Of a stretch of DNA of 64,000 bases, positions 5,318 to 10,678 are shown one piece after another. A program made the position numbers and the translations under genes. The DNA comes from an uncultured Halobacteriovorax sp. (GTDB lineage: Bacteria; Bdellovibrionota; Bacteriovoracia; Bacteriovoracales; Bacteriovoracaceae), in assembly GCA_913061265.1 (NCBI GenBank), contig CAJXVS010000002.1:248001-312000 (forward strand), in the 5' to 3' direction. Position 1 is the stretch's first letter, and each line of letters begins with the position of its first letter. Under the pieces are notes generated by a model. It was not told where the DNA came from and made no database searches. It saw only the letters and a list, made by a program, of their open reading frames with translations.

Positions 5318-6131
5318 GAACTTGAAAGATAAGGCTATAGATAAACATGGCCGTAAAGAAGCCTAAGACCATGGAGAGAACCAAGTTCTTATCATTCATA
5401 TAACTCTTAATCTCTTCAAGCCTTGCCCATTCTGAACTCAATCCATAGATGAATTCTTTAGAACGATTGCTAGCTTTCCCCCAAGAAAAGTGAAGGGCTG
5501 TGGAGGATCCAATCGCCAAGACAAGTGTAATAATAAAGGCGACCTTTTGATTCTTTTGAGTAAGTTGATTTAAGAGGGCCTTTTCAAAATAGATCTCTCT
5601 ACCTTTCATAGTCTCAGCATCTTCGATCTTATTTTTTAAAAATCCCTCTATGATTTTATCGATTAAGTTCTTTGATTTTAAGAATTGATAAAAGGCAATG
5701 GGAGCAAGGATCATTACTGCAGCATAAAGACTTAAGATGAAAGTTGAGTGGTGATTGAAAAAATAATAGCTCGATCCTGCAAGGCCCACTATCAAAAAGA
5801 TAAGGGGAAAGAGAAAGTGAACCTTAGACTTTAGGCGGACATATTCAGGCCCAGTATCAAGAGAGTAAACCTGAACCCTCTGACCAATGGACCAACCAAT
5901 ATCTCCTGTCCCAAAACTTGAAGGGAAGATATAGTTCTTCCCTTTGAAGGCATATTCGATAAGAGGCCGGTAGTAGGTCGAGGTTCTTCTGTTTGTGCGT
6001 GAATGATAGCGTTCAATAGCGTGGACCCGCCCGGGAAGAGTCTTAGCATTACTCGTAAAATAGAAATAATTCAGTCCTAAAAGAAGACCAAATACTAAGA
6101 AAACGGAACTAACGGCAAGAACTATGAACAT
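5304..6131 (-). CDS. DUF3592-domain membrane protein
   Basis: This 275-residue inner-membrane protein has an N-terminal helix (2-24) and a soluble beta-rich DUF3592 segment. That segment runs from LPGRVHAIERY through YRPLIEYAFKGKNY to GQRVQVYSLDTGPEYVRL, about residues 32-104. Two helices follow near 105-150, and two more lie toward the C-terminus. DUF3592 has no established function. The gene stands alone on its strand, facing away from the tmRNA gene. Confidence 0.75.
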   Translation of the reverse strand: MFIVLAVSSVFLVFGLLLGLNYFYFTSNAKTLPGRVHAIERYHSRTNRRTSTYYRPLIEYAFKGKNYIFPSSFGTGDIGWSIGQRVQVYSLDTGPEYVRLKSKVHFLFPLIFLIVGLAGSSYYFFNHHSTFILSLYAAVMILAPIAFYQFLKSKNLIDKIIEGFLKNKIEDAETMKGREIYFEKALLNQLTQKNQKVAFIITLVLAIGSSTALHFSWGKASNRSKEFIYGLSSEWARLEEIKSYMNDKNLVLSMVLGFFTAMFIYSLIFQVLKKK

Positions 6132-6255
6132 ATAACCATCTTAATAGATATCGAGAGATTCTCAAGAGCTCTTAACCCTTTGAGTCATCATAGCCCCCCC
6201 AAATATTCTATGCTATATTCATCTCTCCACTATGTGGAAACTGATTACGATTCGT

Positions 6256-6621
6256 GGGGGTGCCCTGGTTTCGACAGGATCAGTGGACGCTTAGGGTGCG
6301 TGTCTGGGTTGGTCTCTCGGCCCAGTAAAAAAGAGACCAAACATAATTGCTAACGATTCGTTCGCACCTGCAATGGCTGCCTAATAGGCAACACCATTCA
6401 TGAGGCGCTAGTGCCAATAAACAGAAACTAGCAACGCAGTTTAGCTTGCTGTCTAACTAAGCTATGAGGACGCCGGGACTCCTCGCTAAAAATTCACCAG
6501 ACGTTGTCATTTGTAAGTAAAGTGAACAGCCTTGTCTGCGGGCAAAAAACGCAGAAGACACACGTGGTGCCCTATTCAAAAACTGTCTTGGACGTGGGTT
6601 CGATTCCCACCACCTCCACCA
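6256..6621 (+). ncRNA. ssrA: Transfer-messenger RNA (tmRNA), one-piece
   Basis: The 366-nt RNA rescues stalled ribosomes together with SmpB. The 5' end GGGGGTG (6256-6262) pairs with CACCTCC (6611-6617), giving the alanine-type acceptor stem, followed by A and the encoded CCA (6619-6621). The T-arm is GTGGG-TTCGATT-CCCAC. The start matches the universal GGTTTCGACAGG signature. The tag frame lies at 6349-6384. Between it and the 3' domain are GC-rich pseudoknot-forming segments. It is not permuted. A -10-like TATATT occurs at 6214-6219 upstream. The 3' end is copied, in degenerate form, three times downstream (8076-9665). Confidence 0.97.
6349..6384 (+). other. tmRNA tag-peptide reading frame (ANDSFAPAMAA)
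   Basis: The resume codon GCT at 6349 opens a frame encoding ANDSFAPAMAA, ending at TAA (6382-6384) and immediately backed by an in-frame TAG. It starts with AND like many proteobacterial tags and ends in small/hydrophobic residues (MAA) suited to ClpXP recognition. The SFAPA centre is not the common ENYALAA form. Confidence 0.9.
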
Positions 6622-6649
6622 AAAAAACCACCCTGCGGGTGGTTTTTTT
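6621..6649 (+). terminator. Intrinsic terminator of ssrA
   Basis: ACCACCC-TGC-GGGTGGT forms a 7-bp stem (6627-6643) flanked by an A-run and a T-run to 6649. It starts directly at the tmRNA CCA end. Confidence 0.92.
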
Positions 6650-6791
6650 GCGTGGAGGTCGCAAACGAAAAGAAAGCGTTAGCGCCCGCCTGAGTGCGCG
6701 GAGCATATCCGTTAATTTAACAACTCAAACCGAAAGGGCTCCCGTTGACTTCAAAAAAGTATCACGTACCCTATATCAAAAAAGGAATTTT

Positions 6792-7388
6792 ATGATCCGA
6801 TACTTATTGTTAATTTTGCTTATGGTGTTTAGTTTTTCGATTCACGCTAGTATAGAACAAAAATCCCTTATATATGAGGCTAAGAATTTTGAAGAAGCTG
6901 AGTCCTCAAAGTCGTACTTTAGATTTGAAATGCAAAGTTCACTCTTTGGCTTTATCACGGTCAAGTTCCCAGGCTTTGCCAAGGAGTACACACTTCAGTG
7001 GAGACAAGACACTGAGAATAAAATCATTAAGGACTTGAAAATCACTATACCAGTAATGAGTATGGATACTGATAAAGAAAGCAGGACGGAAGAAATGCAG
7101 CTTGATTGCTTAGAAGTAGATAAATTCAAAGAGATTATTGTCACTATTTCTGGTGAGTATAAGTTGGCCAAAGGGGAGCACTCCGTTCAAGGGATTGCAA
7201 AAATAAGAGGAAAGAACGTGAGGCTAAACTTTAAGATATTCACAGAGGTAGAAGAAAACTCTTTTGTAGTTTCTGGGGCATTTCCTGTTCGACTCAAAGA
7301 CGTCAATATCAATAACCCCACAATTGCCAAAGGCTTTGCTTCTTTTAATGATGAGGTAAAGCTTAGCTTCAATTTTCTCGTCCCTTAA
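6792..7388 (+). CDS. Secreted YceI-like (lipocalin-fold) protein
   Basis: The protein has 198 residues with an N-terminal signal peptide (MIRYLLLILLMVFSFSIHAS). The rest is a beta-rich domain of the YceI type, with the usual mix of strands and motifs (MQSSLFGFITVKFPGF, then VQGIAKIRGK and NFKIFTEVEE). YceI proteins bind polyisoprenoids or other amphiphiles in the periplasm. The frame is open back into the tmRNA 3' end, but AAAGGA precedes ATG 6792 and the signal peptide starts there. It is the first gene of the ssrA-linked array, 170 bp after the tmRNA. Ligand unknown. Confidence 0.65.
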   Translation: MIRYLLLILLMVFSFSIHASIEQKSLIYEAKNFEEAESSKSYFRFEMQSSLFGFITVKFPGFAKEYTLQWRQDTENKIIKDLKITIPVMSMDTDKESRTEEMQLDCLEVDKFKEIIVTISGEYKLAKGEHSVQGIAKIRGKNVRLNFKIFTEVEENSFVVSGAFPVRLKDVNINNPTIAKGFASFNDEVKLSFNFLVP

Positions 7389-7472
7389 ATTCATTAGGTG
7401 ATATCGTTTTAGATTAAAGAATGTCTCAAAAGCGGTAGTGACAAATTAAATTAGACAGGATACTTCAATGTC

Positions 7473-8039
7473 ATGACTGTATCAGAAGATTTACCTCAAA
7501 ATTTACCCAAACCAATTGATGATGGAAAGGCTGACCATTTAACGGGGATGAGTCTACCTGATCTTAGCCTTTTACTGTCTAGTGGTAAAAAACTGAATAT
7601 TTCAAAACTAATAAACTGTGTGCTTTTTATTTTCCCAAAGGCTGGAAGTAGTCTTGAAGATCCCATTGATTTTGAAATTTGGGATGCTATTCCCGGAGCT
7701 AGAGGTTGTACCCCACAGTCGTGTGCATACAGAGATTTAAATAATGAGTTTAGTAAATATGGTTTTGATATTTTTGGTTTGAGTGTCCAGAAACCTGAAG
7801 TATTAAAGGAAGTTCAAGAAAGAAATCACATTCCTTTTGATTTAATTAGTGACTCGGACCTTGAGTTAACTGGAGAATTATCCTTACCGACTTTTATGTT
7901 TAAAAGTCGGGAATTGATTAAACGAATCACTTTAATCATCAAAAACGGAAAAATAAAAAAGGTTTTTTATCCCGTCTTTCCGTCTGATAAAGACGCTACG
8001 ACAACTTTAAATTATATAATCGAACATCATACGAAGTAA
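7473..8039 (+). CDS. Peroxiredoxin, AhpC/TSA (BCP-like) family
   Basis: This 188-residue cytoplasmic protein has a thioredoxin-fold redoxin domain. GARGCTPQSCAYRDL carries the peroxidatic Cys and a second Cys five residues on, the BCP/PrxQ spacing. It is followed by the usual FGLSVQKPEVLKEV and PFDLISDSDLELTG segments. It likely reduces hydroperoxides with thioredoxin. Just upstream, ATG TCA TGA (7468-7476) makes a two-codon frame whose stop overlaps the real start (ATGA). The AGGA at 7457 is better spaced for that mini-frame, hinting at translational coupling. It belongs to the ssrA-linked array, and repeat R1 follows. Confidence 0.85.
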   Translation: MTVSEDLPQNLPKPIDDGKADHLTGMSLPDLSLLLSSGKKLNISKLINCVLFIFPKAGSSLEDPIDFEIWDAIPGARGCTPQSCAYRDLNNEFSKYGFDIFGLSVQKPEVLKEVQERNHIPFDLISDSDLELTGELSLPTFMFKSRELIKRITLIIKNGKIKKVFYPVFPSDKDATTTLNYIIEHHTK

Positions 8040-8075
8040 AAACACCTGCATGAAGTTTTGGGTAGTATTTTATCC

Positions 8076-8143
8076 TTCTGTAGTTATCTTCAGAAATTAC
8101 TTAGTAAATACAGGAGGTTATGAGGTTGTCACCACCTCCACCA
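8076..8143 (+). repeat. ssrA-like repeat R1
   Basis: This copy starts TTCTGTAGTTA (8076-8086) and contains AGGAGGT. It ends CCACCTCCACCA (8132-8143), identical to the last 12 bases of tmRNA including CCA. GGAGGT can pair with ACCTCC, so the end can fold as a hairpin. Confidence 0.75.
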
Positions 8144-8250
8144 CCGTGAACAGAAACTATTTGCTGGATAAACAGCATAATTAATCTTATATAAAGCAAT
8201 TTTTCACTAATTGATATGAGAGAGTTGAAAAATCTTCTCAGGAGAATTTC

Positions 8251-8991
8251 ATGAAGTCATTTTTGATAATAGTTTTATTGTACGGGTTATGTGGGATGGT
8301 ACAAGGTGGTGAATCAAAGCTTTGCTCAAAGAAAGATAAGACGTTGTTAATGGGAATCATTAACAAAAATGACCCGAATAATTATGAACATTTTTTAAGA
8401 GTATTTAAAACCAATAAAACCGAGAAGATTGCCCCTTATTTCTACAGTTGTGAAATTCTGAAAATAGATAGTGACCAGCAATTTTATGCTATTAGAATGA
8501 AGGCAAGTTTGGATGGTGGCCCTGGAGCTATGAGGGATTTTTTAATATCATTTAATAAGCTCCTTGGTGTGTCCCATTACAGGCTTCATCGTGATACTGG
8601 TTTTCGTGAATTTGAATGTGGCGTGAGTGATTTGAAATATGAGCTCGAGGGATATTTCAAAATTGGAAAGAGTTGTTACGTAGGTGTAAAGGAAGTCAGA
8701 TCAAAGTACGGATGTGCGGGACAGGAACCTGCATTTAGGGAATCTCTTTTGTTTTTTGACAATGAGAATTATTTCACAACATCTTTTAAAGTTATGTTAA
8801 CAGACAAAAATCAAAAGTTGAGCTCTACATCTAGTAAAAATAAATGTCTGGTTAAGAAAACTTTAAGCCCATGTCACAAGACCCAAACCCAGTGTACATC
8901 TCTAAAGTTTAATTTTAATAGAAATGGGAAAAAAGATATTCGACTGCTAAAACAGGATCGTTCCGGAAGCTTGTTTATGACTACTATGTAA
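8251..8991 (+). CDS. Secreted Cys-rich protein, unknown function
   Basis: This 246-residue protein is not assigned to a family. It has a signal peptide (MKSFLIIVLLYGLCGMVQGG) and eleven Cys in the mature part, several suitably placed for disulfides. A central segment (DGGPGAMRDFLISFNKLLGV) is the most conserved-looking. The basic C-terminus ends in a KDIRLLKQDRSGSL-type tail. AGGAG is seven bases before the ATG. It is the only gene between repeats R1 and R2, that is, one cassette of the ssrA-linked array. Confidence 0.7.
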   Translation: MKSFLIIVLLYGLCGMVQGGESKLCSKKDKTLLMGIINKNDPNNYEHFLRVFKTNKTEKIAPYFYSCEILKIDSDQQFYAIRMKASLDGGPGAMRDFLISFNKLLGVSHYRLHRDTGFREFECGVSDLKYELEGYFKIGKSCYVGVKEVRSKYGCAGQEPAFRESLLFFDNENYFTTSFKVMLTDKNQKLSSTSSKNKCLVKKTLSPCHKTQTQCTSLKFNFNRNGKKDIRLLKQDRSGSLFMTTM

Positions 8992-9021
8992 TAGGGCTAA
9001 GATTTTTTAGCAACGGTAGCA

Positions 9022-9086
9022 TTCTGTAGTTACTTTCAAGATTCAATCAACAATATAAGTAGGTTAGGAGGCTTCCGCCACCTCCA
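9022..9086 (+). repeat. ssrA-like repeat R2
   Basis: It starts TTCTGTAGTTACTTTCA (9022-9038) and ends GCCACCTCCA (9077-9086). GGAGG (9067-9071) can pair with CCTCC (9081-9085). It follows the Cys-rich gene by 31 bp. Confidence 0.75.
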
Positions 9087-9163
9087 TTACCGCCAGTGCA
9101 GAGCACTATGTTCTTTGTTTAATTTTTATTTTATAATTTAAAATTCATAGTCAATGAGGTCTT

Positions 9164-9574
9164 GTGAATTATTTGTTAATACTTTTCTTGTTATGTATTT
9201 CAACAACTTTTATATCTTGTTCAACTGCAAGTAAATCCAAAAGCACAACTCTTCATTTCTCAAATTCTAAATTACCTATTCAGTTCAAAAATACACTTAC
9301 TTCATTTAGCCCAATTGCCTTTAAGAAATGCTATGTTCCATACCTTCGAAAATTTAGAAAAGGAGAGAAACAAAAGCCTCAGATGGGTCTTTTAGAATAC
9401 GCGATAACTTTTGATATGCAGGGGAGAGTGAAAACTGTAAAAACAGTTAAGAATGAAAAACTTCCTAAAAATATTGAACAATGTGTTTCAAGAGGGATTG
9501 AAGGATTAGATTTTAAGGAATCGCAATTTACGGAATTTACGATTTATTATCCAATTACATTCAACTACCGATAA
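9164..9574 (+). CDS. Lipoprotein with TonB-C/AgmX-like domain
   Basis: This 136-residue lipoprotein starts at GTG 9164, with GAGG five bases ahead. It has a hydrophobic leader and a lipobox FISC (Cys19). The C-terminal 80 residues (YAITFDMQGRVKTVKTVKNE, then a single Cys and a FTIYYPITFNY end) resemble the TonB C-terminal/AgmX-PglI fold, where a conserved FDxxGxV strand starts the domain. There is no TonB box or proline linker, so it is probably an envelope-anchored partner rather than a real TonB. It is the last cassette of the ssrA-linked array, between repeats R2 and R3. Confidence 0.65.
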   Translation: MNYLLILFLLCISTTFISCSTASKSKSTTLHFSNSKLPIQFKNTLTSFSPIAFKKCYVPYLRKFRKGEKQKPQMGLLEYAITFDMQGRVKTVKTVKNEKLPKNIEQCVSRGIEGLDFKESQFTEFTIYYPITFNYR

Positions 9575-9600
9575 GCTAATCAAACTTATGAATTGTAGTA

Positions 9601-9665
9601 ATCTGTAGTTACTTTCAAAGATCAGTTAATAAACTTAAGGAGTTACGTGGCATCCACCACCTCCA
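9601..9665 (+). repeat. ssrA-like repeat R3
   Basis: It contains TCTGTAGTTACTTTCA (9602-9617) and ends CCACCACCTCCA (9654-9665). GGAG and CTCC, with GTGG and CCAC inside, give a nested stem that mimics the acceptor and T-arm ends of tmRNA. It closes the array; the convergent LysR gene ends 35 bp later. Confidence 0.75.
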
Positions 9666-9699
9666 GCAGTCGTATTTGAAGACTGCCTTTTCTAAAGGA

Positions 9700-10584
9700 T
9701 CAAGAAAAATATTCAACTAGTTGATCAAAAACAAATCTAATTTTTCGGTTAGTTCTTAATTCTCTATGAGAAACAATCCATGTGGGAAAACTCATCCCGC
9801 TGAAAGACTTCAAGACTCTTTCTACAGACTTATCCTTGTCTCCAATATAATCAGGCATAACACCGATACCTAATCCCGCCTTTACTAGATGCCAATGCAC
9901 AAAATGACTTTCAGTCAAAATTGGAAAGTTCTCTTCGGTAAGGTTTATTCCGGACGATTTTAGACCTTCTATGTACCCTGTTAGATCACCAACACTAACA
10001 AAGTTAGCATTTGATAAATCTTTTAATGTTTTAAAAGGACCATTACTTTTTATAAATTCTTTTGTGGCATAAAAATTACCCTGAGAGTCTGAAACTTGTT
10101 TCATTATAAGGTCGGGTTGCTTAGGTTGAAAGTTCCTAACCGCAATATCAGCTTCTCTTTTTCTGAGATCAGCCGAATCATTCTTTGCAACAACTTCAAT
10201 TTTTATTCCAGGAGCGAGGCTTCGGATTTTTTTAATTACAGGAGGAAGCAAGAAAGCAGAATTCGCCTCACTCGCAGTGATCGTTACGATGCCCTCTAAA
10301 TCTTCTGACTGCCCCATTGCTGCAAAAGAAATCTTACTAGCACCTTCGGCCATGGATTTGACATGCTCTACTAGGTCTAAGCCTATAGGTGTAATTTGGA
10401 TTCCTTTTCCTGCTCGCTCAAAAAGAACCACACCAAGCTCATCTTCTAGGGCCTGAACCTGTCTTCCCAAAGTCGATTGAGTAAGGTTTAGCGCCTTGGC
10501 CGCAGCGGAGTAGCTACCTTTCTCTGCAGTTACAAGGAAGGCTTTCGCCCTATTCCAGTCAAAATTCAGTGTTTTATAGTCCAT
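9700..10584 (-). CDS. LysR-family transcriptional regulator
   Basis: This 294-residue protein has an N-terminal winged helix (FLVTAEKGSYSAAAKALNLT, then STLGRQVQALEDELGVVLFERAGKGI). A periplasmic-binding-type effector domain follows from about residue 90. I start at ATG 10584 (MDYKTLNFDW), since the further 15 residues to 10629 are unlike the family. It is divergent from a methyltransferase gene, the usual arrangement in which a LysR protein controls its neighbour. The effector cannot be read from sequence. Confidence 0.92.
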   Translation of the reverse strand: MDYKTLNFDWNRAKAFLVTAEKGSYSAAAKALNLTQSTLGRQVQALEDELGVVLFERAGKGIQITPIGLDLVEHVKSMAEGASKISFAAMGQSEDLEGIVTITASEANSAFLLPPVIKKIRSLAPGIKIEVVAKNDSADLRKREADIAVRNFQPKQPDLIMKQVSDSQGNFYATKEFIKSNGPFKTLKDLSNANFVSVGDLTGYIEGLKSSGINLTEENFPILTESHFVHWHLVKAGLGIGVMPDYIGDKDKSVERVLKSFSGMSFPTWIVSHRELRTNRKIRFVFDQLVEYFS

Positions 10585-10678
10585 AATGATAGTTGCAAAT
10601 ATGCATATAAGTTGTGTGTATTTTGGCATTTAATAATATTTAATGCAACCGTATAGTATACCTAACAAGGAGCTAATC

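Follow-up and report, generated by a model that had tools for sequence, protein, structure and literature searches.

Mobile gene cassettes probably inserted in series behind ssrA in an uncultured Halobacteriovorax

The question raised by the locus described here is how accessory genes come to stand one behind another downstream of ssrA, the gene for transfer-messenger RNA (tmRNA), in units that each end in a copy of the ssrA 3' terminus. The locus lies in a 64,000-nucleotide stretch of DNA, referred to below as the window, from an uncultured Halobacteriovorax sp. of the Bacteriovoracaceae (contig CAJXVS010000002.1, positions 248,001 to 312,000). Single-gene cassette arrays are regarded as a hallmark of integrons, and a first-pass annotation had likened the locus to integron cassettes that use ssrA as their anchor. 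The cassette interpretation is supported by comparison with related genomes, and the locus is probably a small array of mobile gene cassettes that a lambda-type tyrosine integrase inserted serially at the ssrA 3' end.

The three direct repeats of the locus (R1 to R3) belong to one family, as had been claimed, and each ends in the ssrA 3' end. They are 77-bp attachment sites, here termed ATT, that consist of two 10-bp direct repeats (TTGTAGTnAT CTGTAGTnAc), about 45 bp of further sequence and then the ssrA 3' end (CACCTCCACCA); the consensus of 63 distinct sites reads ntTGTAGTaaTcTGTAGTtatTTtnAAaat-TcantcAAtAAtttnAannAGTTAng-aggc-tnnCACCACCTCCACCA. The annotation had placed the repeats correctly and drawn them slightly too short, since a second, upstream arm repeat belongs to each site; the last bases of two copies had also been missed. 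A hidden Markov model (HMM) built from 58 sites, all of them outside the genus of the window, matched the three sites at E values of 4e-14, 1.3e-16 and 2e-18, while the best match in 20 shuffled copies of the window was 0.041, which excludes chance repeats. A search of the whole 3.97-Mb window genome (E <= 0.001) returned exactly these three array copies and none elsewhere. R1 agrees with 14 nucleotides of the ssrA 3' end (CACCACCTCCACCA). The genes of all three units lie on the tmRNA strand, as first described; the description of one accessory gene per unit fits units 2 and 3, and unit 1 carries two, encoding a YceI-like protein and a redoxin.

The ATT site is common in this family. It is present at the same threshold in 46 of 129 Bacteriovoracaceae genomes and in 26 of their 48 genera (an order-level search gave the identical 129), with 0 to 28 copies per genome, among them 28 in G110 and 20 in G111 (genomes are designated G, contigs C and extracted loci L). 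A phylum-wide search at E <= 1e-8 found ATT in 21 family genomes and in only 2 of about 240 others. Scanning 84,980 species for the exact ATT pattern yielded 38 stretches, mostly in records that bear the name Bacteriovoracaceae, Halobacteriovorax, Bacteriovoracia, Oligoflexia or Bdellovibrionota; those labelled Deltaproteobacteria (N074bin46) and Epsilonproteobacteria (B11_G4) agree with contigs of the family genomes G139 and G008, and viral contigs gave no match to the pattern. Where ssrA and ATT share a contig, ATT lies 3' of ssrA on the same strand (G000, G001, G002, G004, G007, G009, G010, G022 and G078, and further G091 on C15 with a weak site, G102 on C121, G111 on C140 and the out-of-family G154), and no contrary arrangement was seen. 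In G154, a complete genome from a family outside the HMM training, 9.6 kb separate ssrA from the ATT on its 3' side, with a type I restriction-modification locus between them.

The anatomy of the arrays is that of small units. Among 50 array units shorter than 6 kb, which hold 85 open reading frames (ORFs), the median size is 1.49 kb, with exactly one gene in 25 units and two in 13, and the median distance from stop codon to ATT is 11 bp. The last ORF is co-oriented with ATT in 43 of 46 cases, and 73 of the 85 ORFs lie on the ATT strand (p 8e-12, a value that is only indicative, given mechanical ORF calling and the non-independence of the array loci as species samples). The cargo includes GNAT proteins, ORF6N proteins, methyltransferases, redoxins, a BCCT transporter, photolyase-related, AbiE-like and other defence-like genes. 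None of the 50 units contains an integrase, a helix-turn-helix (HTH) gene or a left-arm motif, or remnants of these, the left arms having been sought with one motif only.

Units of this kind have passed between genera as units. A 1265-bp match of 93.4% between G111 and G109, which belong to different genera, starts in the CACCTCCACCA of the preceding site, stops a few bases past the unit's own ATT, and is bordered by unrelated sequence on both sides; a 78% match between G007 and G084 likewise starts in the ATT core. At the locus itself, the comparison of relatives that had been suggested supports the annotation. In G001 (Halobacteriovorax sp. SP2999, of the same genus as the window genome) homology to the window starts at the terminal ATT and continues into LysR, methyltransferase and glyoxalase genes, the LysR protein being an orthologue (93% amino acid identity) whose gene abuts the homologous terminal repeat. 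The content from ssrA to the terminal ATT is wholly different, 3 kb in the window vs 103 kb in G001. A separate two-gene cassette (L042:605-3060 and L142:377-2832), encoding a 476-aa protein without a Pfam match and an AstE/AspA-type desuccinylase, is protein-identical in bins of two genera.

A candidate for the recombinase is associated with the same site. ATT also closes larger elements that start right after ssrA with two genes, one for an HTH protein of 117 aa and one for a tyrosine integrase of 349 aa; in G078 the order is ssrA, HTH gene, integrase gene, 26 kb of further DNA, and ATT. The integrase gene lies upstream of a same-strand ATT at L232-L237 and L251, about 0.04 to 16 kb apart. 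In G010, G100 and G110 the HTH-integrase module lies directly 3' of an ATT, so the elements seem also to insert at array sites. The association emerged only with longer regions, as 3-kb loci around every PF00589 gene contained little ATT. The catalytic residues R-K-H-R-W-Y are invariant in 18 integrases, and an AlphaFold model (pLDDT 85.5, pTM 0.54) has a separate N-terminal domain of three strands and a helix and matches lambda Int and Tn1549 Int, by which the element integrase is, as modelled, of the lambda type. Arm-like repeats at the left end of the elements, TGTGGCTA / TTTGTAGCTA (also TGTGGCTATTTGTGGCTA; TTTGTAGCTA), resemble the ATT arms TGTAGTTA. The repeats, their stacking in tandem, units of one or two genes, a common orientation and, among relatives, a tyrosine recombinase have all been found.

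In the proposed mechanism, a cassette would be 0.6-3 kb of DNA with a 77-bp half attachment site at its right end, in which two integrase arm-binding repeats and a spacer precede a copy of the ssrA 3' terminus that would act as the crossover core. A circular cassette, the likely intermediate, would integrate at the core and regenerate ssrA with a new CCA end, while the left end of the cassette would supply a new ssrA terminator. Each insertion would displace older cassettes away from ssrA, and the LysR-side cassette (R3) would therefore be the oldest. Autonomous relatives carry the HTH regulator and integrase directly after ssrA, together with the same ATT end; the cassettes have neither gene and so would be moved in trans by this integrase family.

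Features of the core are consistent with this scheme. One core base follows the host: in G154 both ssrA and ATT end in CCGCCTCCACCA, compared with CCACCTCCACCA in the home family, and the core of both is CGCCTCCACCA rather than CACCTCCACCA. The same test is uninformative within the family because the last 10-11 nt are invariant there. The bases left of ACCTCCACCA in ATT are independent of ssrA in-family (e.g., in G006 and G078), which would place the exchange in the last ~10-11 nt.

The 34 nt 3' of the core fold more stably than shuffled sequence (-4.72 vs -2.79 kcal/mol, p 6e-5; control region p 0.48), and hairpins that resemble terminators occur more often than in shuffled sequence, both behind ssrA (18 of 39, vs 5.2) and behind ATT (27 of 99, vs 12.1). 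The cassette thus seems to give ssrA a new terminator, which would insulate the cassettes from the ssrA promoter. The claim that ssrA is the anchor stands as regards the target, and use of the ssrA promoter is doubtful, as many cassettes seemingly bear a terminator-like left end. No promoter-like excess was found in 6100-9800 of the window. The features of the locus are collected in Table 1.

Table 1. Features of the ssrA array in the window, with one locus from G154 (positions are those of the window unless a locus is named)
Feature	Position	Strand	Evidence or remark
ssrA (tmRNA gene), target	6256..6621	+	ARAGORN; Rfam RF00023, 122.6 bits
att core = ssrA 3' end (CACCACCTCCACCA)	6608-6621	+	
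Unit 1	6622-8143		YceI-like and redoxin genes
Left end of unit 1: terminator-like hairpin (ACCACCC-TGC-GGGTGGT + T run), immediately 3' of ssrA CCA	6622..6650	+	Sequence
Unit 1 gene a, YceI-like secreted protein, 198 aa	6792..7388	+	Pfam PF04264, E 8e-11
Unit 1 gene b, redoxin / AhpC-TSA family peroxidase, 188 aa	7473..8039	+	Pfam PF08534, E 8e-15
R1, ATT closing unit 1, core intact (CACCACCTCCACCA)	8067..8143	+	HMM match
Unit 2	8144-9089		One gene
Unit 2 gene, 246-aa secreted protein without assigned family	8251..8991	+	
R2, ATT closing unit 2, last bases decayed (CCACCTCCATTA)	9013..9089	+	HMM match
Unit 3	9090-9668		One gene
Unit 3 gene, 136-aa lipoprotein-like protein; weak AgmX/PglI C-terminal-domain similarity	9164..9574	+	NCBIfam NF033768, E 4e-7, below cut-off
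R3, terminal ATT, core CCACCACCTCCAGCA, common to G001 beside LysR orthologue	9592..9668	+	HMM match
LysR-family regulator, chromosomal flank right of array	9700..10629	-	Pfam; 93% identical orthologue beside ATT in G001
Type I restriction-modification genes between ssrA and ATT (G154)	L291:6584-16279		

The protein of unit 2 has no homologue in the 128 other family genomes, and this cassette is accordingly not traceable via its own protein.

Several observations weigh against the proposal of integrase-driven cassettes and temper it. Neither the window genome nor its arrayed relative G002 (81% complete) contains an integrase of the element family, and there is thus no sign of present activity in either; the annotation's statement that no integrase is present holds genome-wide. 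A search for a tyrosine recombinase, which it had recommended, turned up three Xer-like genes in the window genome along with a C-terminal fragment of 113 aa and nothing else, the element integrase having no relative there. Mobilisation of the window array must accordingly be in trans or past, and the array is now stranded, or dependent on an incoming element. Genome-level co-occurrence of ATT with close relatives of the integrase is moderate (13 of 21 vs 33 of 108, Fisher p 0.011). The core ends of R2 (CCACCTCCATTA) and R3 (CCACCACCTCCAGCA) are mutated. A 99.2% match over 2.9 kb between G002 and G111 stops at the last base of ATT, as the transfer of a unit would, yet it takes in a piece of ssrA as well, and the contig may have been binned wrongly. 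The large islands of G001 contain no PF00589 protein, and one uses a large serine recombinase. Finally, the arrays G080:C3 and G091:C11 have no visible tie to ssrA, as the contigs that bear ssrA end nearby. At these two arrays (G080:C3:31813-36940, L137; G091:C11:140934-148306, L138) no ssrA or tRNA is visible at the array start; they may be ectopic, or may be ssrA islands of great length that contig ends have divided.

A serious alternative, although we judge it unlikely, is that the array arose by tandem accretion of decayed islands, that is, as leftovers of larger ssrA elements whose integrase and cargo had been deleted, at a hot spot without a cassette system. Such leftovers would resemble the cis-mobilizable elements (CIMEs) derived from integrative and conjugative elements (ICEs), in which, according to the work of Pavlovic et al. 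(2004) as it is cited in PMC3146451, both attL and attR of the ICE are kept. ATT does form the right end of larger elements, and G001 has 10-47 kb units at the ssrA site that corresponds to the window array. McMurdie et al. (2011, PMC3146451) have moreover read 15 integrase-less tandem ssrA islands of Dehalococcoides as CIMEs. The present units share with CIMEs the lack of an integrase, the flanking att sites and the accumulation in tandem at the 3' end of a gene; unlike CIMEs, the present cassettes have no left arm or integrase remnant and mostly contain 1-2 genes. Decay also sits poorly with the absence of any HTH or integrase remnant among the 85 cassette ORFs and of left arms from all units below 6 kb, and with half of the units having exactly one gene and an ATT a median of 11 bp past the stop. 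Deletion would leave ragged, varied junctions, whereas one small unit was transferred precisely between genera.

The Dehalococcoides islands are the nearest described system. They stand in tandem 3' of ssrA, bounded by ssrA or a 3'-end repeat, some with an integration module near the left boundary and about half without one, and their cargo is strain-specific; the vcr island measures ~12 kb. The recombinase is the serine recombinase DsiB, the site comprises a 20-bp repeat with a 15-bp adjacent motif, and insertion occurs inside the T-loop (PMC3146451). The ssrA target, the tandem form and the bounding of units by 3'-end repeats are thus shared with the present arrays. The latter differ in a lambda-type integrase, an ssrA core of ~11-14 bp, a conserved arm-bearing 77-bp site and mostly 1-2 genes per unit, and the elements that end in ATT are likewise without a serine DsiB module and carry the lambda-type tyrosine integrase instead. 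Like the tRNA and tmRNA islands with tyrosine integrases of Islander (PMC4383910), the autonomous HTH-integrase elements of the present system restore the end of ssrA, with a displaced copy of it at their far side; integrase-less cassette arrays go unmentioned in the abstract of that work. An integrase element between an intact ssrA and a displaced 3'-end copy, as in such islands, is found among the relatives (G078); the window array has no integrase. No account of arrays of the present kind was found in the open-access literature, a coverage that takes in few subscription journals.

That some other recombinase moves the cassettes, either a resident Xer-like protein or the type of large serine recombinase found at ssrA in G001 and G083, appears improbable. 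The only tyrosine recombinases of the window genome are, to be sure, Xer-like, and an element with a serine recombinase abuts ssrA in G001. Paired arm repeats ~45 bp from the core are, however, typical of arm-binding (lambda-type) integrases and are unused by Xer and serine integrases, and ATT ends lambda-type integrase elements at at least 8 loci. The Xer-like genes were set aside as candidates, as they lie in core contexts (one by rnc, others by housekeeping genes) and belong to a recombinase type that makes no use of arm repeats.

A true integron with IntI and attC, or an attC cluster without its integrase, is practically excluded, even though array form, gene size, orientation and post-stop site match integron cassettes. 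The integron motifs RYYYAAC and GTTRRRY are each absent from the ends of all 63 sites, and folding z-scores of -0.36 and -0.35 on the two strands indicate that ATT has no attC hairpin, so that attC identity is refuted by the structure of the site. The element integrase scores 37 bits against an integron-integrase cut-off of 265 (TIGR02249), the window genome has no IntI, and the sites match ssrA. The annotation was right, then, about the integron-like form of the array, and its repeats are the right-hand site of lambda-Int-type ssrA elements rather than attC. The present arrays share with integrons the co-oriented 1-2-gene units, the post-stop site, a tyrosine recombinase and insertion by a fixed anchor. 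They differ in a double-stranded, arm-type site without attC motifs or hairpin, in a recombinase of lambda type rather than IntI, and in having ssrA as the anchor, no attI platform or Pc being identified; the putative insulation of cassettes from the ssrA promoter by terminators would contrast with the Pc promoter. The ssrA array works like an integron, yet is without both of the features, IntI and attC, that define one.

It is hardly conceivable that nothing here is mobile and that the repeats represent a regulatory or RNA element fixed 3' of ssrA, hairpins after the core notwithstanding, given that no known RNA family except tmRNA exceeded its Rfam cut-off, ATT itself is unstructured, the copy number ranges from 0 to 28 per genome, and the ssrA-LysR interval differs 30-fold between two genomes of one genus.

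Returning to mobile cassettes inserted by a lambda-type integrase, a broader proposition is that the Bacteriovoracaceae own an integron-like gene capture system with a lambda-type integrase, double-stranded arm-type sites, ssrA in the role of attI, and one-gene cassettes that move in trans within and between genera, and that this is a second, independently evolved cassette machinery; we consider this proposition finely balanced. The same architecture with ssrA as target and a lambda-type integrase as its basis would imply that cassette arrays can arise more than once, and would make the ssrA arrays a double-stranded counterpart for asking how genes acquire recombination sites. The locus appears to be a gene-acquisition hot spot of predatory bacteria, in which standard integron finders would miss such arrays (IntegronFinder reported no integrons in Bacteriovorax sp. 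As-1, PMC12642874), and may provide a site for genetic engineering of the marine predatory bacteria of the Bacteriovoracaceae.

Other observations concern the recombinases and the ssrA end. A divergent third Xer-like recombinase (G000:C6:106913, L061; also L083 and L088) adjoins rnc in the window genome and in G002, and a related protein occurs in G015. In G001 a serine recombinase of 587 aa abuts the ssrA 3' end (L039:1327-3090, G001:C14), so that the same ssrA end serves recombinases of a second class as well; conjugation-type and metal-resistance genes come after it, and a related recombinase is found at L195:752-2485 (G083). G001 has three full-length tmRNA genes above the Rfam cut-off (C14:895606, C24:30321, C25:4159), in an assembly with 5% estimated contamination. 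Truncated extra ssrA 3' copies downstream of an intact ssrA, at G010:C1:14503-14664 and G015:C2:710452-710611, derive from elements with a longer ssrA fragment.

A second att subfamily (L102:319; L057:9585, reverse strand; L247:11162) has the ssrA core end and the arms GGCTATTTTGGCTAC, which resemble the left arms of G010/G013-type integrase elements. In G022, a 9-kb integrase-less island (L055:1443-10399) lies between ssrA and ATT; it carries genes for an HTH protein, a RhuM-like protein, a trypsin-like protease and a 1157-aa reverse transcriptase-like protein with a nitrilase-like C-terminus and, judged by eye, is likely a defence island.

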